A DNA stretch of 64,000 nucleotides. Origin: Propionivibrio limicola (GTDB taxonomy: Bacteria > Pseudomonadota > Gammaproteobacteria > Burkholderiales > Rhodocyclaceae). Position numbers and translations under genes: made by a program. Below are positions 4,306-23,734 of this stretch, piece after piece. The stretch lies in NCBI RefSeq assembly GCF_009469695.1, contig NZ_SSSR01000001.1:124001-188000 (forward strand). The letters run 5' to 3'. How positions within the stretch are numbered: position 1 is the stretch's first letter; every line of letters starts with the position of its first letter. Under the pieces are notes generated by a model that saw nothing but the letters and a program-made list of their open reading frames with translations, had not been told where the DNA came from and made no database searches.

Positions 4306-5553
4306 TTACCGCTTGACCGCGACCTTGCCGAGGTCCCACATCGGCAGGAAGATGCCGAGCGCGAGAATCAGCACCATCACGCCGAGCAGCACGATGAGGA
4401 TCGGCTCGATTTGCTGACCGAGCGTTTTGAGTTCGTATTCGACTTCCTGCCGGTACATGTCGCCGATTTCGGCCATCATGTCGTCGACCGCGCCCGACTC
4501 TTCGCCAACAGCAATCATCTGCAGGACGACCGGGGTAAAGATGCCGGCGCTGATCGCGGCGCGCAGCAGGCTTTCGCCGCGCTCGACGTTCTCGCGCATG
4601 CTCTCGACGCGGCGCGAAATGAAGACGTTATCGACTGTCTGCGCCGAATTGGAGAGCGCCTGCATCACCGGCACGCCACTGCGAATGCCGAGCGCGAAAC
4701 TGCGCGAGAAGCGCGACAGCGCCGCCTTGTGCAGGATTTTCCCGGCAATCGGGATTTTCAGCGACAGCCTATCCCAATCATGCCGCCCGGCGGCCGTCTT
4801 GACCCATGCGCGGAAGGCGCCAATCGCTGCCAGCAAGCCGACCAACATAACCGGCCAATAATCAACCATGAAATTCGAGAACCCGAGCAGCACGCGCGTC
4901 ATCAATGGCAACTGGGCACCGAAACCGGCAAACACTTTGGCAAAAGCCGGAATGACGAAGATGTTGACGACGACGATCGCCGCTGCCATCGCCAGCACGA
5001 CGAACATCGGATAACGCAGCGCCGATTTGACCTGTTCGCGCATGTAGCGTTCGAACTCCAGATGCTCGAAGAGACGGAAGAACACTTCTTCGAGCAAACC
5101 AGTCGCTTCGCCGACGCGCACCATCGACAGGTAGAACGGAGAAAACACGCGCGGATGGCGAGCCAGCGCCTGTGATAGTTCGCGCCCCGCTTCCAGACTC
5201 TCGCGCACTTCACCGATCACGCGCCGCAGTTCCGGATTGATCGCCGCCTCCTGCAAACCGGCCAGCGCGCGCATGATTGGAACGCCGGACTTGAGCAGCG
5301 TGTGCAACTGGCGGCTGAACAACAGCAGGTCGATATGGGAGACGCGCGCCGGGAGCAGGGAAACATTCAGACCGGCACCTGCTTTCCCGGCCGCCCCGTC
5401 CGTGCGCGTTTTCGTTTCCCGGATTTCAACGGGAATCAGCCCCTGCCCCGACAGCATCTCGGCAACACTGCCCGGACTTACGTTTTCGACGACGCCTTCG
5501 ACGAGACCGCCTCCGGCATTGCGTGCTTTGTAGGCAAAGGTCGCCACCGTCAA
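4306..5553 (-). CDS. mshG: MSHA biogenesis inner-membrane platform protein MshG (GspF/PilC family)
   Basis: A 415-residue GspF/PilC-family protein with two T2SSF domains (about residues 75-195 and 278-400), each ending in hydrophobic helices. It has the usual G-E-A/G-E-E-S-G motifs (R-V-G-E-A-T-G and A-V-G-E-E-S-G). It forms the inner-membrane platform that works with the MshE ATPase. The frame begins with TTG overlapping the mshE stop (TTGA), or with GTG 6 nt later. There is no ATG, so it probably relies on translational coupling. Confidence 0.9.
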   Translation of the reverse strand: MTVATFAYKARNAGGGLVEGVVENVSPGSVAEMLSGQGLIPVEIRETKTRTDGAAGKAGAGLNVSLLPARVSHIDLLLFSRQLHTLLKSGVPIMRALAGLQEAAINPELRRVIGEVRESLEAGRELSQALARHPRVFSPFYLSMVRVGEATGLLEEVFFRLFEHLEFERYMREQVKSALRYPMFVVLAMAAAIVVVNIFVIPAFAKVFAGFGAQLPLMTRVLLGFSNFMVDYWPVMLVGLLAAIGAFRAWVKTAAGRHDWDRLSLKIPIAGKILHKAALSRFSRSFALGIRSGVPVMQALSNSAQTVDNVFISRRVESMRENVERGESLLRAAISAGIFTPVVLQMIAVGEESGAVDDMMAEIGDMYRQEVEYELKTLGQQIEPILIVLLGVMVLILALGIFLPMWDLGKVAVKR

Positions 5554-7256
5554 TCCTCGAACTGGACGCTGATCCGCATGGCTTCCTCAACGGTCGTCCG
5601 TCCCTGCACGACCTGCCGCACGGCATCGCGGCGCAAGGTTTCACCGGCCATCTGCCGGCGCGCCGCCTGGACAAACAGTGCCAAGTCCTCGCCGTTGAGC
5701 GCCTCGACGAGATCGTTGCTCATTTCGAGCATCTCGTAGACGGCCGTCCGCCCCTGGTAGCCCGTTCCACCGCAGTGCGCGCAGCCACGCCCGCGCTGGT
5801 AATGCTGCCGATCGACGGTATCGCCCAACTCGTAGCGCAGCCATTCGCGTTCGTTCGGGGTCGGCGTATAGGATTCGGCGCAGTTTTCGCAGACGAGGCG
5901 GACTAGCCGCTGGGCCAGCACCAGCTGCAGCGACAACGCCACCATGTAGCGCGGCACGCCCATGTCGAGCAAGCGAATCGGCGTTGAAACCACGTCGTTG
6001 GTGTGCAGCGTCGAAAGCACCATGTGGCCGGTCATCGCGGCCCGCATGCCGATTTCCGCCGTCATCTGATCGCGCATTTCGCCGACCAGAATGATGTCCG
6101 GGTCCTGCCGCAGCGCCGACCGCAGCACCCGTTCGAAAGAGAGATCGATTTTCTCGTGCACCTGGACCTGATTGATGCCGGGCAAGCGGTATTCGACCGG
6201 GTCTTCGACGGTGATGACCTTTTTTTCCGTCGTATTGAGTTCGGCCAGCGTCGCGTAAAGCGTCGTCGTCTTGCCGCTCCCCGTGGGGCCGGTGACCAGC
6301 ACCATGCCGCTCGGCCGCCGAACGGCTTTGCGCAGACGTTCCAGAACAGGCGCCGGCATATTGAGCCGCTCAAGACCGAGCAGGCCCGTGTTCTGGTTGA
6401 GCAATCGCATGACCACCGATTCGCCGAACTGCGTCGGCATGGTCGATATGCGCACGTCGACCATCGTATTGCGCACCTTGATGGCGAAACGACCGTCGAG
6501 GGGCAAGCGCTTCTCCGAGATATCGAGACCGGATATCAACTTCAGGCGCAAGGCCAGTGCCGACGCAATCTTGCTGTCGGCCTCCATCTGCACATAGAGA
6601 ACGCCGTCGATGCGGAAGCGGACGCGCAGCGAGCGCTCCTGCGGCTCGATGTGGATATCGGACGCCCGCGTGCGCATGGCCTCTTCGAAAACCGTTTGCA
6701 ACAGCTTGACGACGGGCGCTTCTTCAGCGCCCGTGGCCGCCCCGAGCAGTTCGCCGAACTCGACCGGCACGTCGCCCAAGTCCTCGGTCAATTCGCGCGC
6801 CAGGCCGCTGATCTCGTCGGTGCGCCGATAAACGCGGTCGATGAGCGCCAGCAACTGGCTTTCGGCCACCACGGCCAGTTCGACCTCGCGGCGCGTCAGA
6901 CGCAGGATGTCATCGTAAGCCTGCAGATCGGTCGGATCGACAAACCCGACCTGTAAATGCCCATGAATCTCGCCGAGCACAACGGCGCGAAAACGCCGCG
7001 CCTGCGCTTCTGTGAGCAGGTTGATCAATTCCGGATTCGGGTTGAACTGCTTGAGATCAACAAAAGGCGCGTTCAACTGGCGGGCCAGCGCACGCGAGAT
7101 CGCTTCCTCGGTGGCAAACGAGCTTTCGACGACAATGCGCCCGAGCTTACGGCCACTGCGTTTCTGTTCCTCAAGGGCAAATTTGAGCTGCTCTTCGGTC
7201 AGCACTCCTTGCTGGATCAGCAAGTCACCGAGTCTGATTTTTTCCGGACGCGCCAT
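5550..7256 (-). CDS. mshE: MSHA pilus extension ATPase MshE with c-di-GMP-binding N-domain
   Basis: A 568-residue GspE/PilB-type secretion ATPase. Residues 8-31 (R-L-G-D-L-L...Q) and 37-60 (K-L-G-R-I-V...Q) are two successive MshEN motifs, the c-di-GMP-binding element defined in MshE homologues. A T2SSE domain follows with Walker A GPTGSGKT (323-330), a Walker B/Asp box region (D-I-I-L-V-G-E-M-R-D) and a zinc-binding tetracysteine site (C-E-N-C...C-A-H-C). It powers pilin polymerisation at the inner-membrane base. It is the first msh gene on this strand; mshH-N are not in the window upstream. A diguanylate-cyclase-like gene lies just upstream. Confidence 0.93.
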   Translation of the reverse strand: MARPEKIRLGDLLIQQGVLTEEQLKFALEEQKRSGRKLGRIVVESSFATEEAISRALARQLNAPFVDLKQFNPNPELINLLTEAQARRFRAVVLGEIHGHLQVGFVDPTDLQAYDDILRLTRREVELAVVAESQLLALIDRVYRRTDEISGLARELTEDLGDVPVEFGELLGAATGAEEAPVVKLLQTVFEEAMRTRASDIHIEPQERSLRVRFRIDGVLYVQMEADSKIASALALRLKLISGLDISEKRLPLDGRFAIKVRNTMVDVRISTMPTQFGESVVMRLLNQNTGLLGLERLNMPAPVLERLRKAVRRPSGMVLVTGPTGSGKTTTLYATLAELNTTEKKVITVEDPVEYRLPGINQVQVHEKIDLSFERVLRSALRQDPDIILVGEMRDQMTAEIGMRAAMTGHMVLSTLHTNDVVSTPIRLLDMGVPRYMVALSLQLVLAQRLVRLVCENCAESYTPTPNEREWLRYELGDTVDRQHYQRGRGCAHCGGTGYQGRTAVYEMLEMSNDLVEALNGEDLALFVQAARRQMAGETLRRDAVRQVVQGRTTVEEAMRISVQFED

Positions 7257-7389
7257 TCAGATTCCAGTCGTTTTTATGGGTGGTACGCGGGGCCACCGAT
7301 TCTATCCGAATCATGGTCGCAAAGTGTTTTCAAGGTTTCCTGAACCAACCGAAAACCTGCACCTCTCCCCTGATCGGCGACGCCATGGA

Positions 7390-8604
7390 TCAAGAACCCG
7401 CGGGAGTTTCTCTTTCGTAAAACCGGATCGTATTGCGCCCGGCCTCCTTGGCCTGGTACATCGCCACGTCGGCCCATTTGAGAACGTCGGGCGGCGTCGC
7501 TTCGTGGTTGATGAAAATGACGACACCGATGCTGGCCGTGCAGCGATGCTCGATGAGCTGGTCAGGCGCGCCGGCTTTCTTCACGGTCAGCACATGCGGT
7601 TCGGCCAGCACATGCGGTTCGGCCAGCACATGGTGGATTTTCTCGGCGACGATGCGCGCCTGCACGGTCGATTCGGCGCGGCTCGTGTCGAGTTCGCTCA
7701 AGACGACGACAAACTCGTCGCCACCGAAGCGTGCAACGGTGTCGGTTTCACGCACGCAATCGGTCAGCCGCCGGGCGACCTGCTCCAGCAGAAGGTCGCC
7801 GACGGGATGGCCGTGCGTATCGTTAAGCGGCTTGAAATTATCGAGATCGAGGAACATCAGCGCGGCATAACGACCGCTGCGCCGGCTGGCGGCCATCACC
7901 AGCCCAAGCCGGTCGTCGAGCAGGCGACGATTCGGCAAGCCGGTCAGCGCATCGTAGAAGGCCAGGCCGCGAATCTTCTCTTCGGCCTGATGGCGTTCGA
8001 TGACGAGCAGCACCAGATTGGCGTAGCTCTTGATCAGTTCGATGCTGTCGTCCGCGTCAATTCCCGCCCCCTGAACTGACTCGCGCCGGTAGAGCGCGAT
8101 TGAGCCGAGCACCTTGCCGGACGGGTCCTTGAGAAGATGCGTGAGGCAAGCGCGCAGACCAATTTGCTCCGCCATCTCGCGGCGAGGCCCGGACGCCGGA
8201 TGCGCCAGAAGATTGTCGATAACAAGCGTATCGGCAAAATCCCGGCCGAGGTCGGCATAACGTTCGGCCACGACGGTACGATCCACGGCCCGCACATAGT
8301 CTTCCGGCAAACTCGGCGCCGCCACCACTCGCAGCGCCTCCCCTGCTTCATCGAGCAGCCGGATCGAGCAAAAAACGCCGGGATGCAAGGCTTCGATCCG
8401 ATGCGCGAGCAAATCGAGGACTTCATGCAGCATTTGTCCCGCGTTGATCCGGCAGAGGATCTCGTTGTTCAGTTCAAGCTCCCGCGTACGCCGGAGCAAC
8501 GCCAGCTCGGCCACTTTTCTCGCCGTAATGTCCTGCATGGCGCCGACCAGTCTTACGGTCTTGCCATCGCGCTGGATAGCCTCGCCACGGCTATGAATCC
8601 ACAC
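7390..8604 (-). CDS. PAS(end)-GAF-GGDEF half of an interrupted diguanylate cyclase
   Basis: This frame continues exactly, without a shift, from the preceding gene across a single TAG codon at 8605-8607. It opens with V-W-I-H-S-R-G-E-A, the last strand of a PAS domain, then a GAF domain (about residues 45-205) and a complete GGDEF domain with R-F-G-G-D-E-F (292-298). An RETD inhibitory I-site lies five residues before GGDEF. The catalytic half is therefore intact, but it has lost its periplasmic sensor unless the amber codon is read through. A GTG directly after the stop could allow reinitiation. There is no EAL domain. An 18-bp tandem duplication lies in the GGDEF domain. Confidence 0.8.
   Translation of the reverse strand: MWIHSRGEAIQRDGKTVRLVGAMQDITARKVAELALLRRTRELELNNEILCRINAGQMLHEVLDLLAHRIEALHPGVFCSIRLLDEAGEALRVVAAPSLPEDYVRAVDRTVVAERYADLGRDFADTLVIDNLLAHPASGPRREMAEQIGLRACLTHLLKDPSGKVLGSIALYRRESVQGAGIDADDSIELIKSYANLVLLVIERHQAEEKIRGLAFYDALTGLPNRRLLDDRLGLVMAASRRSGRYAALMFLDLDNFKPLNDTHGHPVGDLLLEQVARRLTDCVRETDTVARFGGDEFVVVLSELDTSRAESTVQARIVAEKIHHVLAEPHVLAEPHVLTVKKAGAPDQLIEHRCTASIGVVIFINHEATPPDVLKWADVAMYQAKEAGRNTIRFYERETPAGS
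7588..7632 (-). repeat. 18-bp tandem repeat inside the GGDEF coding region
   Basis: The unit cagcacatgcggttcggc occurs twice head-to-tail (7588-7605, 7606-7623), followed by a 9-bp partial copy. It encodes repeated H-V-L-A-E-P and keeps the frame. It falls after the GGDEF signature, in a surface loop or helix region, where an insertion might be tolerated. Confidence 0.9.
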
Positions 8605-10002
8605 CTAGCGCCCGCTCGGCAGCGTCAGCAGCGACTCGTGCTCCCACGGCGTGCCGTCGTTGATCGCCCGTTCGACCTCGGCCATCCGGGCCGGGCGTTC
8701 TTCCGGCGCGTAGAACGACAACGCCTCCTCGGCCTTGAGCACACTTCCCGGCGGCAGCTCACGGATGCGCGCCGCTTCGGCGCTGAGGATGATCGTATGC
8801 GAACCGATATCGCGCTCCCAGCCACCGATACGCGCCATCTCGTTGGTACGCCGCAGGCTTGAGTTCAAACGCATCAGCCGCTCCTCCGCGCTCTTGCGCA
8901 AAACGACTTCCTTGCGCAGACGGTAAAGCATCACCCCCATCGCCGACACGATGGCCAGCGCGGCGAGAATCCCCCACAGCAGCCCCCAAACGATGCGGCG
9001 CATGCGATTCTCGCTCGCCCCCACATCCGGGTCGTAAATAAATCCGTCGAGCCGCGCATCGCTCGCCGCCATGCCGGTTTCCTTGAAGGCATCAACCATG
9101 CTCTGCCAGCGCCAGCGGTTCATGTGCCCGATTTCGACCATGGCCGGCAAGACCAGCGACCGCATGGCCTCGGCCTCGAACTGCAAATGCTCGCGCGTCT
9201 TCGGGACACGGTACTTGTCGAGCAGCAGGTCGATCACTTCGTCCGGATGCTCCATGGCGTAGTTCCAGCCGCGCAGCGTGGCGGCACGGAACATTTTTAC
9301 GCGTTCCGGGTGCTGACGCAGCTCATCCTCCGACGTGAAGAGGATGTCGCCGTAGTAGTCGATGCCGTAATGACTCGGATTGATGACGTTATATTCGATG
9401 CCGAGCTGACGCAGGACGAACGGTTCGTTGGTGAGATAGGAATTGAACGCATCGACCTTGCCCGCAACAAGATCCTTGATGTCGTAGCTGGTCGGCTGGA
9501 TATTGACCGTTTCCGGCTTGACGCCTTCGTGCAGCAGCATGGCGTAAAAATCCGAGTCATGCCGACCGCGCATGAGCATGACTTTCTTGCCGACCAGATC
9601 ATGCGGCGTGCGGATTCCGGAATCGGCCCGCGTCACCAGCACCGACGGCGAATGCTGGAAGATCGCCGCCAGCGCGACCAGCGGCTGTCCGCGCAAGCGC
9701 TCGTACAGCACCTCGCTGTTGGCGGCGCCATATTGCGCCCGGCCGGAGAGCACTTCATCGACCGGCAGCTTGCCGGGGCCACCCTCGAGCAAGCGCACAT
9801 CAAGCCCGGCTTCCTGGTAGAAGCCCTTTTCGAGCGCCACGTAATAGCCTGCAAACTGGAACTGGTGCATCCAGCGCAGTTGCACGTTGACCGTTTCGGA
9901 TGCATTGGACTCGGCGCGACTGGCCCATGCCCCGAACAGGCCGGACAGCGCGAACAACACGGAAAGCAGGCGGATCAGCGTCAGTTTCAAGGCCGGGCTC
10001 AC
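8605..10002 (-). CDS. NMT1/SsuA-like periplasmic sensor - TM - PAS half of the interrupted diguanylate cyclase
   Basis: A 465-residue product. An N-terminal signal or anchor helix (about residues 7-26) is followed by an NMT1/SsuA-like substrate-binding domain (V-N-V-Q-L-R-W-M-H-Q-F-Q-F-A-G-Y-Y-V-A at about 38-56), typical of proteins that bind thiamine-pyrimidine-like or sulfonate ligands. A transmembrane helix at about 340-362, a short coiled coil and a PAS domain follow. The PAS domain stops in its final strand at L-P-S-G-R-TAG. The next codons in the same frame finish that domain, where a Trp (TGG) is expected in place of TAG. Together the halves make a one-pass periplasmic-sensing diguanylate cyclase of about 870 residues. 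The start is a GTG without a clear ribosome-binding site. Confidence 0.8.
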   Translation of the reverse strand: MSPALKLTLIRLLSVLFALSGLFGAWASRAESNASETVNVQLRWMHQFQFAGYYVALEKGFYQEAGLDVRLLEGGPGKLPVDEVLSGRAQYGAANSEVLYERLRGQPLVALAAIFQHSPSVLVTRADSGIRTPHDLVGKKVMLMRGRHDSDFYAMLLHEGVKPETVNIQPTSYDIKDLVAGKVDAFNSYLTNEPFVLRQLGIEYNVINPSHYGIDYYGDILFTSEDELRQHPERVKMFRAATLRGWNYAMEHPDEVIDLLLDKYRVPKTREHLQFEAEAMRSLVLPAMVEIGHMNRWRWQSMVDAFKETGMAASDARLDGFIYDPDVGASENRMRRIVWGLLWGILAALAIVSAMGVMLYRLRKEVVLRKSAEERLMRLNSSLRRTNEMARIGGWERDIGSHTIILSAEAARIRELPPGSVLKAEEALSFYAPEERPARMAEVERAINDGTPWEHESLLTLPSGR

Positions 10003-10130: not shown

Positions 10131-10246
10131 CACCACCAAGGCACCAAGAACACAAAGTTTCACCAAGAAAACCCTCGAAAGGCTGTTGCCTGTCTTGTTT
10201 CTTTTCTTGGTGCGATCTTGGTGCCCTTGGTGACTTGGTGGTTCGC
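10131..10246. repeat. dispersed palindromic intergenic repeat (CACCAAG family)
   Basis: Two inverted arms built from caccaag/cttggtg words lie between draG and the sensor gene. The left arm reads caccaccaaggcaccaagaa and onward; the right arm ends in cttggtgacttggtggttcg. The same element recurs at 23553-23659. It can fold into a long imperfect hairpin and carries no credible gene. It may act as a terminator for both flanking units. Confidence 0.75.
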
Positions 10247-14651: not shown

Positions 14652-14667
14652 AGCAATGGCTGTGCCA
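14652..14667 (-). promoter_or_regulatory. sigma-54 (RpoN) -24/-12 promoter of nifB
   Basis: Read on the minus strand: TGGCAC-N5-TTGCT. GG and GC are separated by exactly 10 bases, matching the RpoN consensus. It ends about 35 nt before the nifB GTG, a suitable leader length. Confidence 0.92.
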
Positions 14668-20160: not shown

Positions 20161-20437
20161 GCGAATGTCGGCCCGCCGCGCATACCGCGCCGACAGCATC
20201 GAGCAGACGTCATGTAGAAGCAGTCGCCGCAACCGAGCGGCTCGTAGTATTTGAGGACGACCTTGTAGCCGTCCAAGTCACCCGCCCCCTTGTCTGACGC
20301 GGTATCGGCACATTGCCTATCTCAAGAATCGAACGGCTTCTATAGACAACGTTGAGCTTGCCGGTCGCCTCCAGATAGCGCGCCACATCGGCCGCCGACA
20401 GCGCGCTCGCCTCGGATTCGTTGATTCGGGTAATCAT
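20088..20437 (-). pseudogene. small hypothetical protein, apparently frameshifted
   Basis: The frame from ATG 20437 (M-I-T-R-I-N-E-S-E-A-S-A-L-S-A-A-D-V-A-R-Y-L) is protein-like up to I-P-R-Q-T-R-G, then turns into Ser/Thr/Arg-rich shadow sequence. The other frame then becomes protein-like: G-D-L-D-G-Y-K-V-V-L-K-Y-Y-E-P-L-G-C-G-D-C-F-Y. The switch lies at a C5 run near 20286-20290, a typical indel site. The joined product would be about 115 residues with a C-G-D-C motif and would overlap the 3' end of the CLC-F gene on the other strand. No family recognised. Confidence 0.4.
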
Positions 20438-20525
20438 CGATTCACCAACAAAAGCCGCAAAGGGAAGGACTCGGGATGATAAAGGCACACCTTGGCGGTG
20501 AGAAGTGAAAGAAGCGAAACGAGCG

Positions 20526-21536
20526 TTATTGCACGGGGATCACGCGCTCGCCGCGCCGGAGCTGGTTGCGCAGTTGCTGGACCCGCGCATCGATGGCTTC
20601 GAGTTCGGCGAGGTGGTCTCGCTCCTCCTGACTGGTCGCCAGAATGCTGGCGATGCCGCCGTTGCGGATGATGAGCCGCTGCTCGGCCATCAGCGCCAGA
20701 ATCGGGTCGTGCGTGGCCATGAGGACGATCTTTTCCTGCCGCACGAGGAGCTGCAGCGCCTTCTTGCGGTCGATGCCGGCGTTTTCCACTTCGTCGATCA
20801 GCACCACCGGCGAGGCGGAAAGGAAGGCGGTGTCGGCGATCATCAGCGCCCGCGACTGGCCGCCGGACAGCGCCGTAACGGGCGTTGTCGCACTGAACGA
20901 CTCGCCGGCCAGCCGGTTGGCCTGCAGGATGATGTCGTCAACGATCGTTTCGCTGTCGATCTGCCGGCTTTCGGCGTGCATGCGGATGAAGTCGCCGGCC
21001 GCGAGGTCCATGACGAAGTTCATGTTCTGCGAGAGCTGGGCGACGAGCTTGTGCTCCAGCGCAAAGCGCAACTCCGGGTCGGGTGCGGCACCGTTGATCA
21101 GGATGCGCCGGCCGGTCGGTGTGTCGCCCTGCGCCATCCATTCGATGTCGGCGAGCAGGCGGCTTTTGCCCGAGCCGGTCGGGCCGACGATGCTGGTGAT
21201 GCTGCCGGGGTGGAGCGTGAGTTCGCAATTTTCCGGCTCGCCGGTCTTGTTGCGCCCGCCGATGACGGTCAGGCACTCGACCTTGAGCGGTGAATGCCGG
21301 ACCGGTGGATGCAGCAGCCGGTCGATGTGGTGCAGCAGTTGTTCCGGGCCGATGCCGACATGCTCAAAGTGATCGCTGGGCAGTTGCGCCATATAAGCTG
21401 CCAGCGTCACCGAACCATCCGGCGGCGGTTCGATGCCGAAATCGGCAAGCTGCATTTTCAGCAAGGGATACGCGGTCAGCAGTTCGGTCAGAGGCCGCTG
21501 CCACCAAGGGGGGGCTGTAGTCGACGAATCGTTCAT
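20526..21536 (-). CDS. soluble ABC-type ATPase with N-terminal DUF1858/ScdA_N-like domain
   Basis: A 336-residue protein. Residues 13-75 (L-T-E-L-L-T-A-Y-P-L-L-K-M-Q-L-A-D-F-G-I...) resemble the DUF1858/ScdA_N helical domain seen with redox or metal-repair proteins. Residues 85-320 form an ABC ATPase: Walker A GPTGSGKS (118-125), signature LSGGQ (223-227), Walker B V-V-L-I-D-E-V-E (244-251) and H-loop His276. It has no membrane helices and no permease gene nearby. It follows a GTPase gene and a substrate-binding-like gene on the same strand, with a repeat in between. ATG 21536 is chosen; the frame is open to 21617. Role unknown; metal or cofactor handling is inferred from the partners. Confidence 0.8.
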   Translation of the reverse strand: MNDSSTTAPPWWQRPLTELLTAYPLLKMQLADFGIEPPPDGSVTLAAYMAQLPSDHFEHVGIGPEQLLHHIDRLLHPPVRHSPLKVECLTVIGGRNKTGEPENCELTLHPGSITSIVGPTGSGKSRLLADIEWMAQGDTPTGRRILINGAAPDPELRFALEHKLVAQLSQNMNFVMDLAAGDFIRMHAESRQIDSETIVDDIILQANRLAGESFSATTPVTALSGGQSRALMIADTAFLSASPVVLIDEVENAGIDRKKALQLLVRQEKIVLMATHDPILALMAEQRLIIRNGGIASILATSQEERDHLAELEAIDARVQQLRNQLRRGERVIPVQ

Positions 21537-21561
21537 CTGAAAAACCTCAGTTTGAACCGCT

Positions 21562-21700
21562 TTCAACGCAGAGATCGCGGAGATACAGAGGGCGCAGAGA
21601 AAAGCATTGAGTTGCAAGGCGCGTGGAGTGCGTACTTGTGCGCTGGGCTTGCGTCTTCTCTGCCTTTTCTCGGTTTTTCTCTGCGTTCTCTGCGTCGAAT
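21562..21700. repeat. intergenic inverted repeat (cgcagaga family)
   Basis: Arms of acgcagagatcgcggagata and onward, and ctctgcgttctctgcgtc, face each other across about 70 bp between the GTPase and ABC ATPase genes. The element is a dispersed-type palindromic repeat with no coding potential. It is similar in design to, but different in sequence from, the caccaag repeats. Confidence 0.6.
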
Positions 21701-21719
21701 GCGGTTTGCTTTTTCATCG

Positions 21720-22403
21720 TCACACCTTGATCTTGCGGATGTTGCCTTCCTGGAAGTCGTCGCCGATGCGCGTCTCGCCGAGGCAGTAGGAACAGAGGGC
21801 GGCCGGTAGCGTGAAGCGTAGCGCGCCGCCTTCCAGCGTCGGCACGTCGGCCGCGTCGTTGAGCAGTGTCGTCAGCTCGTAGGCGCCCTGCCCGGTGATG
21901 CCGTTCACGTGCAGGATGCGCGCCTTGCTGTTGGCCTGCCGCACCTTGAAGGCGAACACTTCGCGCTCGGCTTGCGAGACGATGTCGCCCTTGGTGATGA
22001 CGACGATGTCGGCCATCTTGAGCATCGGCCCGACCTTCTTCGGCGTGTTGATGCCCATCAGGTTGTCGATCACGCAGATCGCCAGCACGCCGCGGATGTG
22101 CGGCGAGCAGCGGTTGCACAGGCCGGCGCTCTCGGAAATCAGCAGGTCGAACCCCTCGCCGACGCCCCAGCGCACGCAGTCGTCGATGTTGCTGACGAAG
22201 TAGTGGTCCGGACACAGATTGCCCGACAGCCCCACCCGTACCGGCACGTCGAGCGCGGCGTAGCGTTCGTCGTCATCGGTGGCAAGGCAGTCGAACTTGA
22301 CGACGCCGACCTGGCGCCCCTCGCCGTGCAGCACGCGGATGACGTTGGCCAGCACCGACGTCTTGCCGGACGACGGCGGGCCGGAGACGGTGATCAGCTT
22401 CAT
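21720..22403 (-). CDS. UreG/HypB-like P-loop GTPase with Cys pairs
   Basis: A 227-residue SIMIBI/G3E-type GTPase. P-loop G-P-P-S-S-G-K-T-S (8-16), K-F-D-C (36-39, base of switch I), E-S-A-G-L-C-N-R-C-S (91-100) in the switch II position, and T-K-G-D (137-140) as the guanine-specificity motif. Cys pairs C96/C99 and C204/C207, plus C39 and C64, could bind a metal, as in HypB, UreG or CobW chaperones. It lies 10 bp after the substrate-binding-like gene and upstream of the ABC ATPase. The likely role is GTP-driven metal or cofactor delivery; the target is unknown. No hyp or ure genes are in the window. Confidence 0.82.
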   Translation of the reverse strand: MKLITVSGPPSSGKTSVLANVIRVLHGEGRQVGVVKFDCLATDDDERYAALDVPVRVGLSGNLCPDHYFVSNIDDCVRWGVGEGFDLLISESAGLCNRCSPHIRGVLAICVIDNLMGINTPKKVGPMLKMADIVVITKGDIVSQAEREVFAFKVRQANSKARILHVNGITGQGAYELTTLLNDAADVPTLEGGALRFTLPAALCSYCLGETRIGDDFQEGNIRKIKV

Positions 22404-22413
22404 CCGCGAATCC

Positions 22414-23469
22414 TCAACCTTTCCTTACGCTGGCCGGCAAACCCGCCTGAAACTCGGCATCGAGCACGTTCGACAATTCGTTGAAATCACTCGACGCCAG
22501 CGTATCCATGTCGGCCATCGAATACGGCTGCGACCAGTCCATCGCATCGACGGTGTGGATATCGCCCTTGGCCAGCACGTCGCGCAGCGACTCGCCCCAG
22601 AAGAACGGCAGCACGTCGCGGCAGGCGTCGAGCTGGTCGTGCTTCACGAAGAGCAGCATCGGCGTCAGGATCGGGCCGTCGCTCAGCTTCACCTCGACGA
22701 CGCGCTTGCGGCTCGGAATCTGGCGGATCGCCGCGCTCGGCATGAGCACGAAGCGGGCGCGCTCCGGGTCGCTCGAATCCATGCTCTTGATGATCTGCGA
22801 AAAATGCTTGAGGTAGCGAATATTGGCGGCGAACTGGCGCGGCGCGCCCTCGCCCAGCCGCGTGCGCAACACCATCAGCAGCGCCGTGCCGGAGACATGG
22901 CCGCTGCACCCATGCATGCCGATTTCGCCGGCGTAGCAGGGTTTGACGAGGTCGTTCCAGGTCGTCGGCACCGGGCTCGACGATTCGACGCTTTCGTCCA
23001 TCACCATGCCCCACGAGCCGAAGCCAAGGAAGCCGAGGTTGTGCTTTTCTCCAACGGCGCGGAATTCCGGCGAAAGCAAGTCCGCCCATTCCGGTCGCGT
23101 CAGGCCGACGTAGAGACCGGAATCGATGAAGCGCGACTTGAACGGCTGCGTGAACAGCGCGTGGTAGTTGTTGGTCAGCCAAACGTCCGGCACGTCGTTG
23201 AGCGTCTCCGCGACGGCCATGTCGTCCTCCACCGAATGCGGCTCGCCTTCGAGCAGCGTCGGGCTGTGGAGCGGCACGTCGTGCGTCGCGTTGTACTCGG
23301 CGACGAAACTTTCCAGCACGCCCTTCAGCCGCACCTTGAGCGGACACGGCACGCTGATGTGCAGATTGATCGCATCGGGGCGCAACAACGGCACCGGCTC
23401 GGCGCTGACCTGCGCCAGAAAGTCGAGAAAATGGTTGGATTTGTCCGAAATGTCGGATTGAACGCTCAC
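22414..23469 (-). CDS. ABC substrate-binding-like protein without a signal peptide
   Basis: A 351-residue protein resembling iron- or spermidine-type extracellular solute-binding proteins: H-I-S-V-P-C-P-L-K at about residue 35, D-V-W-L-T-N-N-Y-H, and a W-N-D-L-V-K-P-C-Y-A-G-E-I-G segment typical of the family. The N-terminus is charged and has neither signal peptide nor lipobox, so the protein appears cytosolic, which is odd for this fold. Cysteines in P-C-P-L-K, K-P-C-Y and H-G-C-S-G-H could be ligands. GTG 23469 is chosen because GGAG lies 7 nt upstream; the open frame to 23520 adds no signal peptide. It is the first gene of the permease-less triad. Confidence 0.75.
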   Translation of the reverse strand: MSVQSDISDKSNHFLDFLAQVSAEPVPLLRPDAINLHISVPCPLKVRLKGVLESFVAEYNATHDVPLHSPTLLEGEPHSVEDDMAVAETLNDVPDVWLTNNYHALFTQPFKSRFIDSGLYVGLTRPEWADLLSPEFRAVGEKHNLGFLGFGSWGMVMDESVESSSPVPTTWNDLVKPCYAGEIGMHGCSGHVSGTALLMVLRTRLGEGAPRQFAANIRYLKHFSQIIKSMDSSDPERARFVLMPSAAIRQIPSRKRVVEVKLSDGPILTPMLLFVKHDQLDACRDVLPFFWGESLRDVLAKGDIHTVDAMDWSQPYSMADMDTLASSDFNELSNVLDAEFQAGLPASVRKG

Positions 23470-23552
23470 GGAAAGCTCCGGAAAAAGGCAGATTCCGGAA
23501 CCGTGCAAGTTCGATGCCAAGGTCGCTTTTCAGGTGACAGGCCAATAAAAAG

Positions 23553-23659
23553 CAAACCACCAAGTCACCAAGAACACCAAGGTGGCACCAAGAAAACATT
23601 CCAACGCTCTGTTTTTCTTGGTGAAACTTTGTGCCCTTGGTGACTTGGTGGTGAAACGC
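23553..23659. repeat. second copy of the CACCAAG palindromic repeat
   Basis: Inverted arms aaccaccaagtcaccaagaa and onward, and ttcttggtgaaactttgtgc through cttggtgacttggtggtg, lie upstream of the substrate-binding-like gene. They match the element at 10131-10246, including the caaagtttcaccaag/cttggtgaaactttg core. No gene is seen here. Confidence 0.75.
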
Positions 23660-23734
23660 TTTTATCCAGAGGCCAGAACGAATGTCAGCTTTGAAACATT
23701 CGCTGTCGCAAACGGCGCGACGAGGCGGCGCGGC

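Follow-up and report, generated by a model that had tools for sequence, protein, structure and literature searches.

Established metal-delivery proteins occur among the G3E P-loop GTPases (PMC9164220), and the same paper names a glutamate in the G3 motif as the hallmark of this group and a CxCC motif as that of the COG0523 GTPases. In the biosynthesis of the iron-molybdenum cofactor (FeMo-co) of nitrogenase, NifQ is presented in PMC11605450 as the Mo-Fe-S donor. Here we analyze three adjacent genes, encoding a substrate-binding-protein-like protein, a G3E-type GTPase and an ATP-binding cassette (ABC) ATPase, from a nif-rich locus of Propionivibrio limicola (contig NZ_SSSR01000001.1, positions 124,001 to 188,000 of the forward strand). 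The whole 64,000-nucleotide stretch is called the window, to which positions refer unless stated otherwise, and the three genes are called the trio. We find that the trio is a conserved three-gene system without a permease and that the branch of it present in the window is tied to Mo nitrogenase, and we weigh the possibility that it carries a metal for FeMo-co biosynthesis.

A conserved trio of genes without a permease

In the window the minus strand carries the binding-protein gene first, followed by those of the GTPase and the ATPase; the trio spans 23469 to 20526, with intergenic gaps of 10 bp and 183 bp (Table 1). An initial annotation had described three such genes on one strand with no permease, and so it proved: each protein carries its Pfam domain above cut-off, and no permease gene adjoins the trio in the window. 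Relatives were collected from a scan of one-per-species genomes, in which 80 of 220 stretches encoding a relative were kept. These come from Firmicutes, Fusobacteria, Spirochaetes, Bacteroidetes, Chlorobi, Acidobacteria, Krumholzibacteriia, Cloacimonadota, Desulfobulbus, Geobacter and others. The loci analysed have flanks of unequal length (3.4 kb in locus L048; 10001-36000 for the window piece), and L161 and L189 were retained despite broken or fused frames. A Fusobacterium vincentii record has the three genes in identical order, with 63% identity between its GTPase and that of the window. Across the 78 loci in which the GTPase was placed, the ATPase gene is next downstream in 76 and the binding-protein gene next upstream in 72. 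The recurrence in anaerobes and diazotrophs that the annotation had suggested looking for was thus observed, and the trio is a real, conserved, permease-less three-gene system.

The sole Pfam match of the binding protein is SBP_bac_6, above cut-off. We judged the GTG at 23469 to be its best start and rejected a longer TTG start at 23520 because it would abut the promoter-like site listed in Table 1. No signal peptide is evident from either start, in line with the initial annotation, as the N-terminal hydropathy is 1.1 or 1.7 compared with a median of 2.94 for ModA controls (n=21). Both starts leave the window gene below our threshold for exported proteins, as do 106 of 110 homologue frames, by a test that is crude because just 9 of 18 FecB controls passed it, compared with 19 of 21 ModA and 4 of 4 NMT1 controls. 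Among the four homologue frames that exceed the threshold, at least two (L163 and L167) are extended past the shared N-terminus. We predict a cytosolic location for this protein.

An AlphaFold2 model of the binding protein (pLDDT 90) was compared with solved structures using Foldseek and VIA-align. The nearest folds are those of P5PA, FbpA, FutA, AfuA and a metal-citrate binder; VIA-align Z scores run from 15.3 to 17.6 across the 50 entries shown, the closest at about 16-17.6 and the sulfate binder 1sbp at 15.8. The model therefore predicts a two-lobed fold of the ferric-binding-protein type. In an alignment of 48 binding proteins, Pro41-Cys42-Pro43 is near-invariant and His222 is invariant, and both residues are absent from a short, divergent copy in L063. 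In several VIA-align rows the aligned ranges end with residue 1 of FbpA opposite residue 33 of the model; by these range ends Cys42 would fall at or beside the place of FbpA His9, an iron ligand. Cys and His ligands in the cleft, which the initial annotation had expected, are supported: the predicted fold and the conservation of Cys42 and His222 agree with them, while the modelled placement of both residues in the cleft is approximate and the L063 copy has neither. The L063 region (4340-8679 of that locus) contains two adjoining trio-like sets, one with the short binding protein and a very divergent GTPase, beside genes for an NMT1-type ABC importer.

The GTPase scores well above the cut-off for the cobW nucleotide-binding domain, and its G3 motif reads ESAG at residues 91-94, with E91 invariant in 28 aligned sequences. 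By its sequence it is a G3E P-loop GTPase, with both the domain and the G3 glutamate. Three Cys/His motifs, C64-P-D-H67, C96-x-x-C99 and C204-x-x-C207, are likewise invariant in the 28 sequences, and UreG and HypB are its nearest meaningful solved structures; the UreG/HypB-like character and the Cys pairs first noticed in the sequence are thus upheld. The protein stays far below the equivalog cut-offs of HypB (TIGR00073, 41.7 vs 121.2 bits) and UreG (TIGR00101, 26.8 vs 204.2 bits), and the CxCC motif is absent from its 227 residues. Of 27 homologues aligned with it, 26 share 63-83% identity and the divergent L063 copy 52%.

The ATPase has an ABC_tran domain above cut-off, with readable motifs that we take to be the Walker A, Q-loop, LSGGQ and His switch, and is 46-63% identical to 25 homologues. 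Its N-terminus had been read as DUF1858-like. PF08984 (DUF1858) gave no Pfam match there in any of 26 homologues, but profile-profile comparison of this domain by hhalign with the DUF1858-type N-terminal domains of sibling binding proteins gave 96.5%, so the original reading is probably right. The domain is modelled at pLDDT 78, and a fold search yielded no match at E 0.001 or better, a result that speaks neither for nor against a DUF1858 fold. In other branches of the trio DUF1858 sits on the binding protein: PF08984 is above cut-off in the single protein of this kind that was scanned, that of L036, a DUF1858-like N-terminal pattern can be seen by eye in most of 76 listed binding proteins, and the DUF1858-type part of an other-branch binding protein has a PDB profile match to 2fi0. 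The binding protein of the window's own branch is often short. None of the NCBIfam matches listed for the three trio proteins, which in the case of the ATPase are the best 25 of 129, is above cut-off, and the binding protein has just two weak matches of aminoethylphosphonate type at E 1 or better.

Nitrogenase and molybdate-transport genes around one branch

In the first GTPase tree the window and nine loci split from the rest. This branch, which we named type N and defined on the GTPase tree, separates without exception in three trees: those of the GTPase (support 0.61, with 71 of 164 sequences, some of them one gene entered twice through a short and a long fetch), the ATPase (37 of 113, 0.94) and the binding protein (34 of 100, 0.99). 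The window's binding protein is 36-52% identical to those of the nearest type-N loci; the figure falls to 20-22% for L053, L095 and L099, which lie deeper in type N, and to 13-19% for other branches. Set against the identities of the two NTPases given above, this suggests that the engine has stayed constant while the cargo subunit has changed. Further genomes came from a sample of the Desulfuromonadia, presumably the class of the L053 Geobacter genome, in which 35 of 117 genomes match (one of them G524, a 40% relative), and from a sample of the Bacteroidota, the phylum of the L031 Chlorobiaceae genome, in which 17 of 296 match. Six Desulfuromonadia genomes contain both types of trio; genomes holding both were counted as type N, and G524 was left out of both classes. 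At the locus of the latter (L193) the 40%-identical GTPase lies beside an Rrf2-type regulator and an ATPase with no recognised binding protein, perhaps a third type.

The window's type of trio is tied to Mo nitrogenase. In the first set each of the 10 type-N genomes has NifD, as do 2 of 18 others, and over all sets it is present in 46 of 47 type-N genomes vs 7 of 30 others (Fisher p ~2e-12, treating related genomes as independent, as in all our Fisher tests). Counted as present were a 641-bit match in the type-N genome G452 (cut-off 653.55) and a fragment below cut-off in the non-N genome G550; G900 is the sole type-N genome without a NifD match. Within the Desulfuromonadia sample alone, NifD was found in 22 of 22 type-N genomes and 5 of 12 others.

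The same link appears in the neighbourhoods. ModA or ModB genes lie within about 9 kb of 22 of 40 type-N loci vs 3 of 80 others (p 2e-10), one of the three exceptions, L028, having no GTPase start placed. For nif genes the counts are 14 of 40 vs 0 of 80 (p 3e-8), some of the neighbour calls being weak: that in L179 is a NifX-like match and that in L192 an FdxN-like match. In L174 a single strand carries nifH, nifD, nifK, nifX, fdxN, a nifX-like gene, the binding protein, GTPase and ATPase, nifB, modA, modB, a modC-like gene and nifV, where the nifB match covers the core part only and lies below cut-off (301 vs 343.65 bits). L171 has a similar order with no ModA match, L173 reads nifDK-nifX-fdxN-nifB-modCAB-trio-nifV, and in L099 modABC and then nifHDK follow downstream. 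Many Bacteroidota type-N loci have a gene for a FecB-type binding protein immediately upstream, in many cases accompanied by a FecCD permease. A ModE-like gene (80.8 bits vs a cut-off of 98.5) lies 34 bp downstream of the trio in L025. A permease regularly found beside homologues would have spoken against a permease-less system; ModB or FecCD is indeed often near the type-N trio, but usually with an ATPase and a binding protein of its own. A simple partnership with a FecCD-, Zn- or P-type transporter was rejected, such neighbours being present in some loci only. Outside type N, ModA is also near L028, L030 and L032 (Krumholzibacteriia/Gemmatimonadales), so the Mo link may predate the nif link.

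In the window itself the trio is placed between nifB and nifA: nifB, at ~7.7 kb from the GTPase, and draG flank it on one side, and nifA, nifL and rnfA on the other, each above its family cut-off, which confirms the nif-rich surroundings described at the outset. In contig coordinates nifD is at 93072, NifQ at 81989 and the trio at ~144.5-147.5 kb.

Upstream of the trio lie a sigma-54 promoter-like site and a perfect NifA upstream-activator-like site (Table 1), recognised with consensus forms that we take to be the accepted ones. The joint chance of both sites being suitably placed in the window is ~4e-5, using densities from shuffled sequence; over its full length the window shows no enrichment for either pattern (4 sigma-54-like sites vs 2.45 expected; 9 TGT-N10-ACA sites vs 7.16 expected). 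The window nifB has a like layout, and the orthologue in L023, the nearest relative, has a sigma-54-like site with two mismatches at -55, together with one resembling the enhancer at -185. Among 47 other binding-protein starts scanned, a sigma-54-like site with at most two mismatches precedes 9, of which 5 sites lie inside a called reading frame and those of L176, L178 and L179 are one identical sequence; 4% of random stretches have a site. The layout in the window agrees with the pattern of a NifA/sigma-54 regulon, and NifA may regulate the trio. An imperfect inverted repeat on ACCACCAAGTCACCAAG lies between the enhancer-like and sigma-54-like sites. Copies of it occur near draG, and the window holds six matches with at most 3 mismatches vs 0.08 expected.

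Table 1. Positions of the trio and of nearby features in the window
Feature	Positions	Strand	Remarks
Substrate-binding-protein-like gene, predicted cytosolic, first of trio	22414..23469	-	351 aa, GTG start; PF13343 128 bits
G3E-type GTPase, HypB/UreG/CobW superfamily	21720..22403	-	227 aa; PF02492 44.1 bits (cut-off 20.7); CPxH, CxxC, CxxC motifs
ABC-type ATPase, N-terminal DUF1858-like domain (~residues 1-80)	20526..21536	-	336 aa, ATG at 21536; PF00005 51.5 bits; without transmembrane partner
Sigma-54 (-24/-12) promoter-like site TGGCATCGAACTTGCA	23504..23519	-	1 mismatch to consensus; starts 50 bp before GTG
NifA upstream-activator-like site TGT-N10-ACA, perfect	23683..23698		~170 bp upstream of -24 element
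Sigma-54-like site, nifB	14652-14667		
Enhancer-like sites, nifB	14724 and 14762		
Imperfect inverted repeat	23556-23652		
Repeat copies near draG	10132-10148 and 10226-10242		
GTPase/ATPase gap	21537-21719		CGCAGAG-like motif repeated
92-aa reading frame	20210-20488		Just downstream of trio; no family match

The 92-aa frame downstream of the trio is, by eye, perhaps the remnant of a broken gene, and a CGCAGAG-like motif is repeated between the GTPase and ATPase genes. Further along, at ~43000-64000, GC falls from ~0.62 to ~0.50 with strong AT skew, and the genes there, named by eye, are NADH-dehydrogenase- and phosphate-transport-like; this drop may mark an island or an assembly boundary.

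Proposed function and alternative explanations

We propose that the trio is a nif-regulated, soluble, nucleoside-triphosphate-driven metal carrier that serves FeMo-co biosynthesis and most likely moves molybdenum, and we put the probability of this reading at about one half. It draws on the conservation of the unit, the cytosolic character of its sequences, the predicted fold, the nif and Mo neighbourhoods, the co-occurrence with NifD and the promoter-like sites; the role in metallocofactor supply guessed in the initial annotation is supported by the strong link of type N with both Mo nitrogenase and the transport of molybdate. Under this proposal molybdenum, as molybdate, thiomolybdate or a Mo-organic-acid species, would be taken over from importers of the ModABC or FecCD type and passed to the assembly line of NifB, NifEN and NifH, with which the trio would have to interact. 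The cytosolic binding protein would hold the cargo in its cleft through Cys42 and His222, and the HypB/UreG-like GTPase, with its three Cys/His motifs, would accept or gate the metal. The ABC ATPase, having no membrane partner, might spend ATP on opening the binding protein or driving the hand-over, with the DUF1858 domains assisting it as docking modules.

Several results weigh against this proposal. The window's binding protein, with its predicted fold of ferric-binding type, has no match to the ModA model TIGR01256. Apart from the shared ancestry that our Fisher tests leave out of account, NifD is common in the Desulfuromonadia at large, being present in 24 of 28 trio-less genomes checked (of 82; NifD counts for trio-less genomes cover this class), and in view of this high background the neighbourhood test carries more weight. 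Fourteen relatives of the window genome have NifD above cut-off and no trio, which makes the trio dispensable. The sister branches mostly lack NifD, and 8 of 18 lack any ModA match, so the engine itself is not Mo-specific. Among the 47 other starts scanned, L023 alone has both regulatory sites. Finally, NifQ is present in the genomes of both the window and L023, and among the Desulfuromonadia it occurs in 7 of 23 trio-bearing (type N) and 10 of 24 nif-bearing trio-less genomes (p 0.55).

The distribution of NifQ led us to reject the trio as its simple replacement, since NifQ co-occurs with it in the window and L023 genomes, nif-bearing relatives of the window genome lack the trio, and no negative association is seen in the Desulfuromonadia. 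The remaining 8 of the first 10 type-N genomes gave no NifQ match, and neither did any of 16 further type-N Bacteroidota genomes; PF04891 (NifQ) is not among the Pfam matches of the three trio proteins at E 1 or better. To our knowledge, no route of Mo to FeMo-co is established for diazotrophs without NifQ.

The same machine could instead carry iron or iron-(homo)citrate for the assembly of NifB-co, the P-cluster or FeMo-co. The solved folds closest to the binding protein include ferric-binding proteins and a metal-citrate binder, the position of Cys42 relative to FbpA His9 fits an iron site, and nifB adjoins the trio in L174 and lies in the same region of the window; yet the transporters beside type N are of molybdate or FecCD type, once with a ModE-like gene, and the Tyr ligands of FbpA could not be recognised by eye in the sequence from the window. 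We regard an iron cargo as unlikely. More doubtful is a metal sensor or switch, in which the binding protein would sense molybdate, tungstate or another ligand and the NTPases would relay this to Nif or Mod activity without delivering cargo. Binding-protein folds in the cytosol can serve as sensors, and regulator genes adjoin some of the trios, a ModE-like one in L025 and ones of Crp/Fnr or Rrf2 type outside type N, but the Pfam matches of the trio include no DNA-binding, kinase or receptor domain, the three conserved Cys/His motifs of the GTPase fit metal handling, and two NTPases would be costly for a switch.

The trio might also be a general anaerobe accessory for iron-sulfur clusters or nitrosative stress, with the type-N nif link incidental. 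A gene matching the Hcp cluster lies in the fetched flank of 15 of the first 82 regions and a Crp/Fnr-type regulator in 11 (family models were run on the L036 members), Hcp is present in 36 of 47 trio genomes, that of the window included, and the type-N locus L164 has a 642-aa gene matching the Hcp cluster, by length perhaps a CO dehydrogenase. Against this, Hcp is absent from 11 of the 47 genomes and no Hcp gene neighbours the trio in the ten first-set type-N regions, which also led us to reject a dedicated Hcp maturation factor; moreover, linkage to nif and Mod genes follows the type-N split, and in L171 and L174 nif genes enclose the trio in a single run. We therefore hold such an accessory role to be improbable. 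That the trio is a recently transferred passenger with no selected role in the window genome is hardly credible. It was probably acquired, as among 398 genomes of the phylum the window genome alone has the binding protein at E 1e-15, and 27 genomes of the same genus have no GTPase match better than ~31% identity, but its open reading frames have GC content at third codon positions (GC3) of 0.82-0.93 and retain the conserved Cys and His residues, and the nif-type promoter-like layout is common to the window and L023.

The other branches bear on a wider hypothesis. In 42 of their loci an 80-aa zinc-ribbon (CxxC) gene has a weak HypA match (E 7e-5, 23.2 bits vs a cut-off of 28.9); in L036, L039, L044, L060, L075, L101 and others such a gene is found near Hcp and Crp/Fnr- or Rrf2-type regulators. 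Given these neighbours, the cargo of these branches may differ. We tentatively suggest, as a possibility that we would not yet favour, an unnamed ancient family of machines, each made of a soluble binding protein, a G3E GTPase and an ABC ATPase, as the intracellular counterpart of ABC importers: a near-constant engine with binding proteins diverged for different metallocofactor precursors. Type N would load Mo or Mo-homocitrate into FeMo-co assembly, and the HypA-like/Hcp branches would do likewise for a different cluster, which might be the hybrid cluster or, under nitrosative stress, a scarce metal.

If the proposal of a molybdenum carrier is correct, the parts of ABC importers can be used inside the cell for passing metals. 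The transfer of nitrogenase to new hosts requires a full parts list, to which the trio is a short candidate addition: three genes, a NifA-type promoter-like region and two candidate metal residues. Even if the cargo is not Mo, a trio conserved across anaerobe phyla, with no specific NCBIfam match listed above cut-off, merits a function.

Comparison with known systems

The trio may be a new kind of system, although its chemistry may prove to be of the known NTPase-metallochaperone kind. We rate it as new because no known system of this composition was found in our searches of open-licence PMC papers, as the initial annotation had anticipated, and because family tests for HypB, UreG, CobW, ABC importers, ModA and NifQ did not recover it. 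Its GTPase resembles HypB, which with HypA serves nickel insertion into NiFe-hydrogenase, and UreG, which serves that into urease, in being a G3E P-loop protein with Cys/His motifs, and the zinc-ribbon protein added in other branches weakly extends the likeness to HypA. It differs from HypB and UreG in its distance from their equivalogs, in its partners, a cytosolic binding protein and an ABC ATPase, and in the nif/Mo neighbourhood of type N, in place of hydrogenase or urease genes. With the COG0523/CobW GTPases it has PF02492 in common, but not the CxCC motif.

Compared with the FbpABC and ModABC importers of ferric iron, sulfate or molybdate, the trio has the same two-lobed binding-protein fold, as predicted, and an ABC ATPase, but no evident signal peptide and no permease of its own, and it adds a GTPase and DUF1858-like domains. 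Its proposed place between molybdate uptake and NifEN would be that of NifQ, to which none of its proteins matches; the two co-occur, with no sign of mutual replacement. SufC, as treated in PMC9164220, offers a further likeness to the trio ATPase, being a soluble ABC ATPase that serves a metallocluster pathway; SufC works with SufB and SufD, whereas the partners of the trio ATPase are a binding protein and a GTPase.

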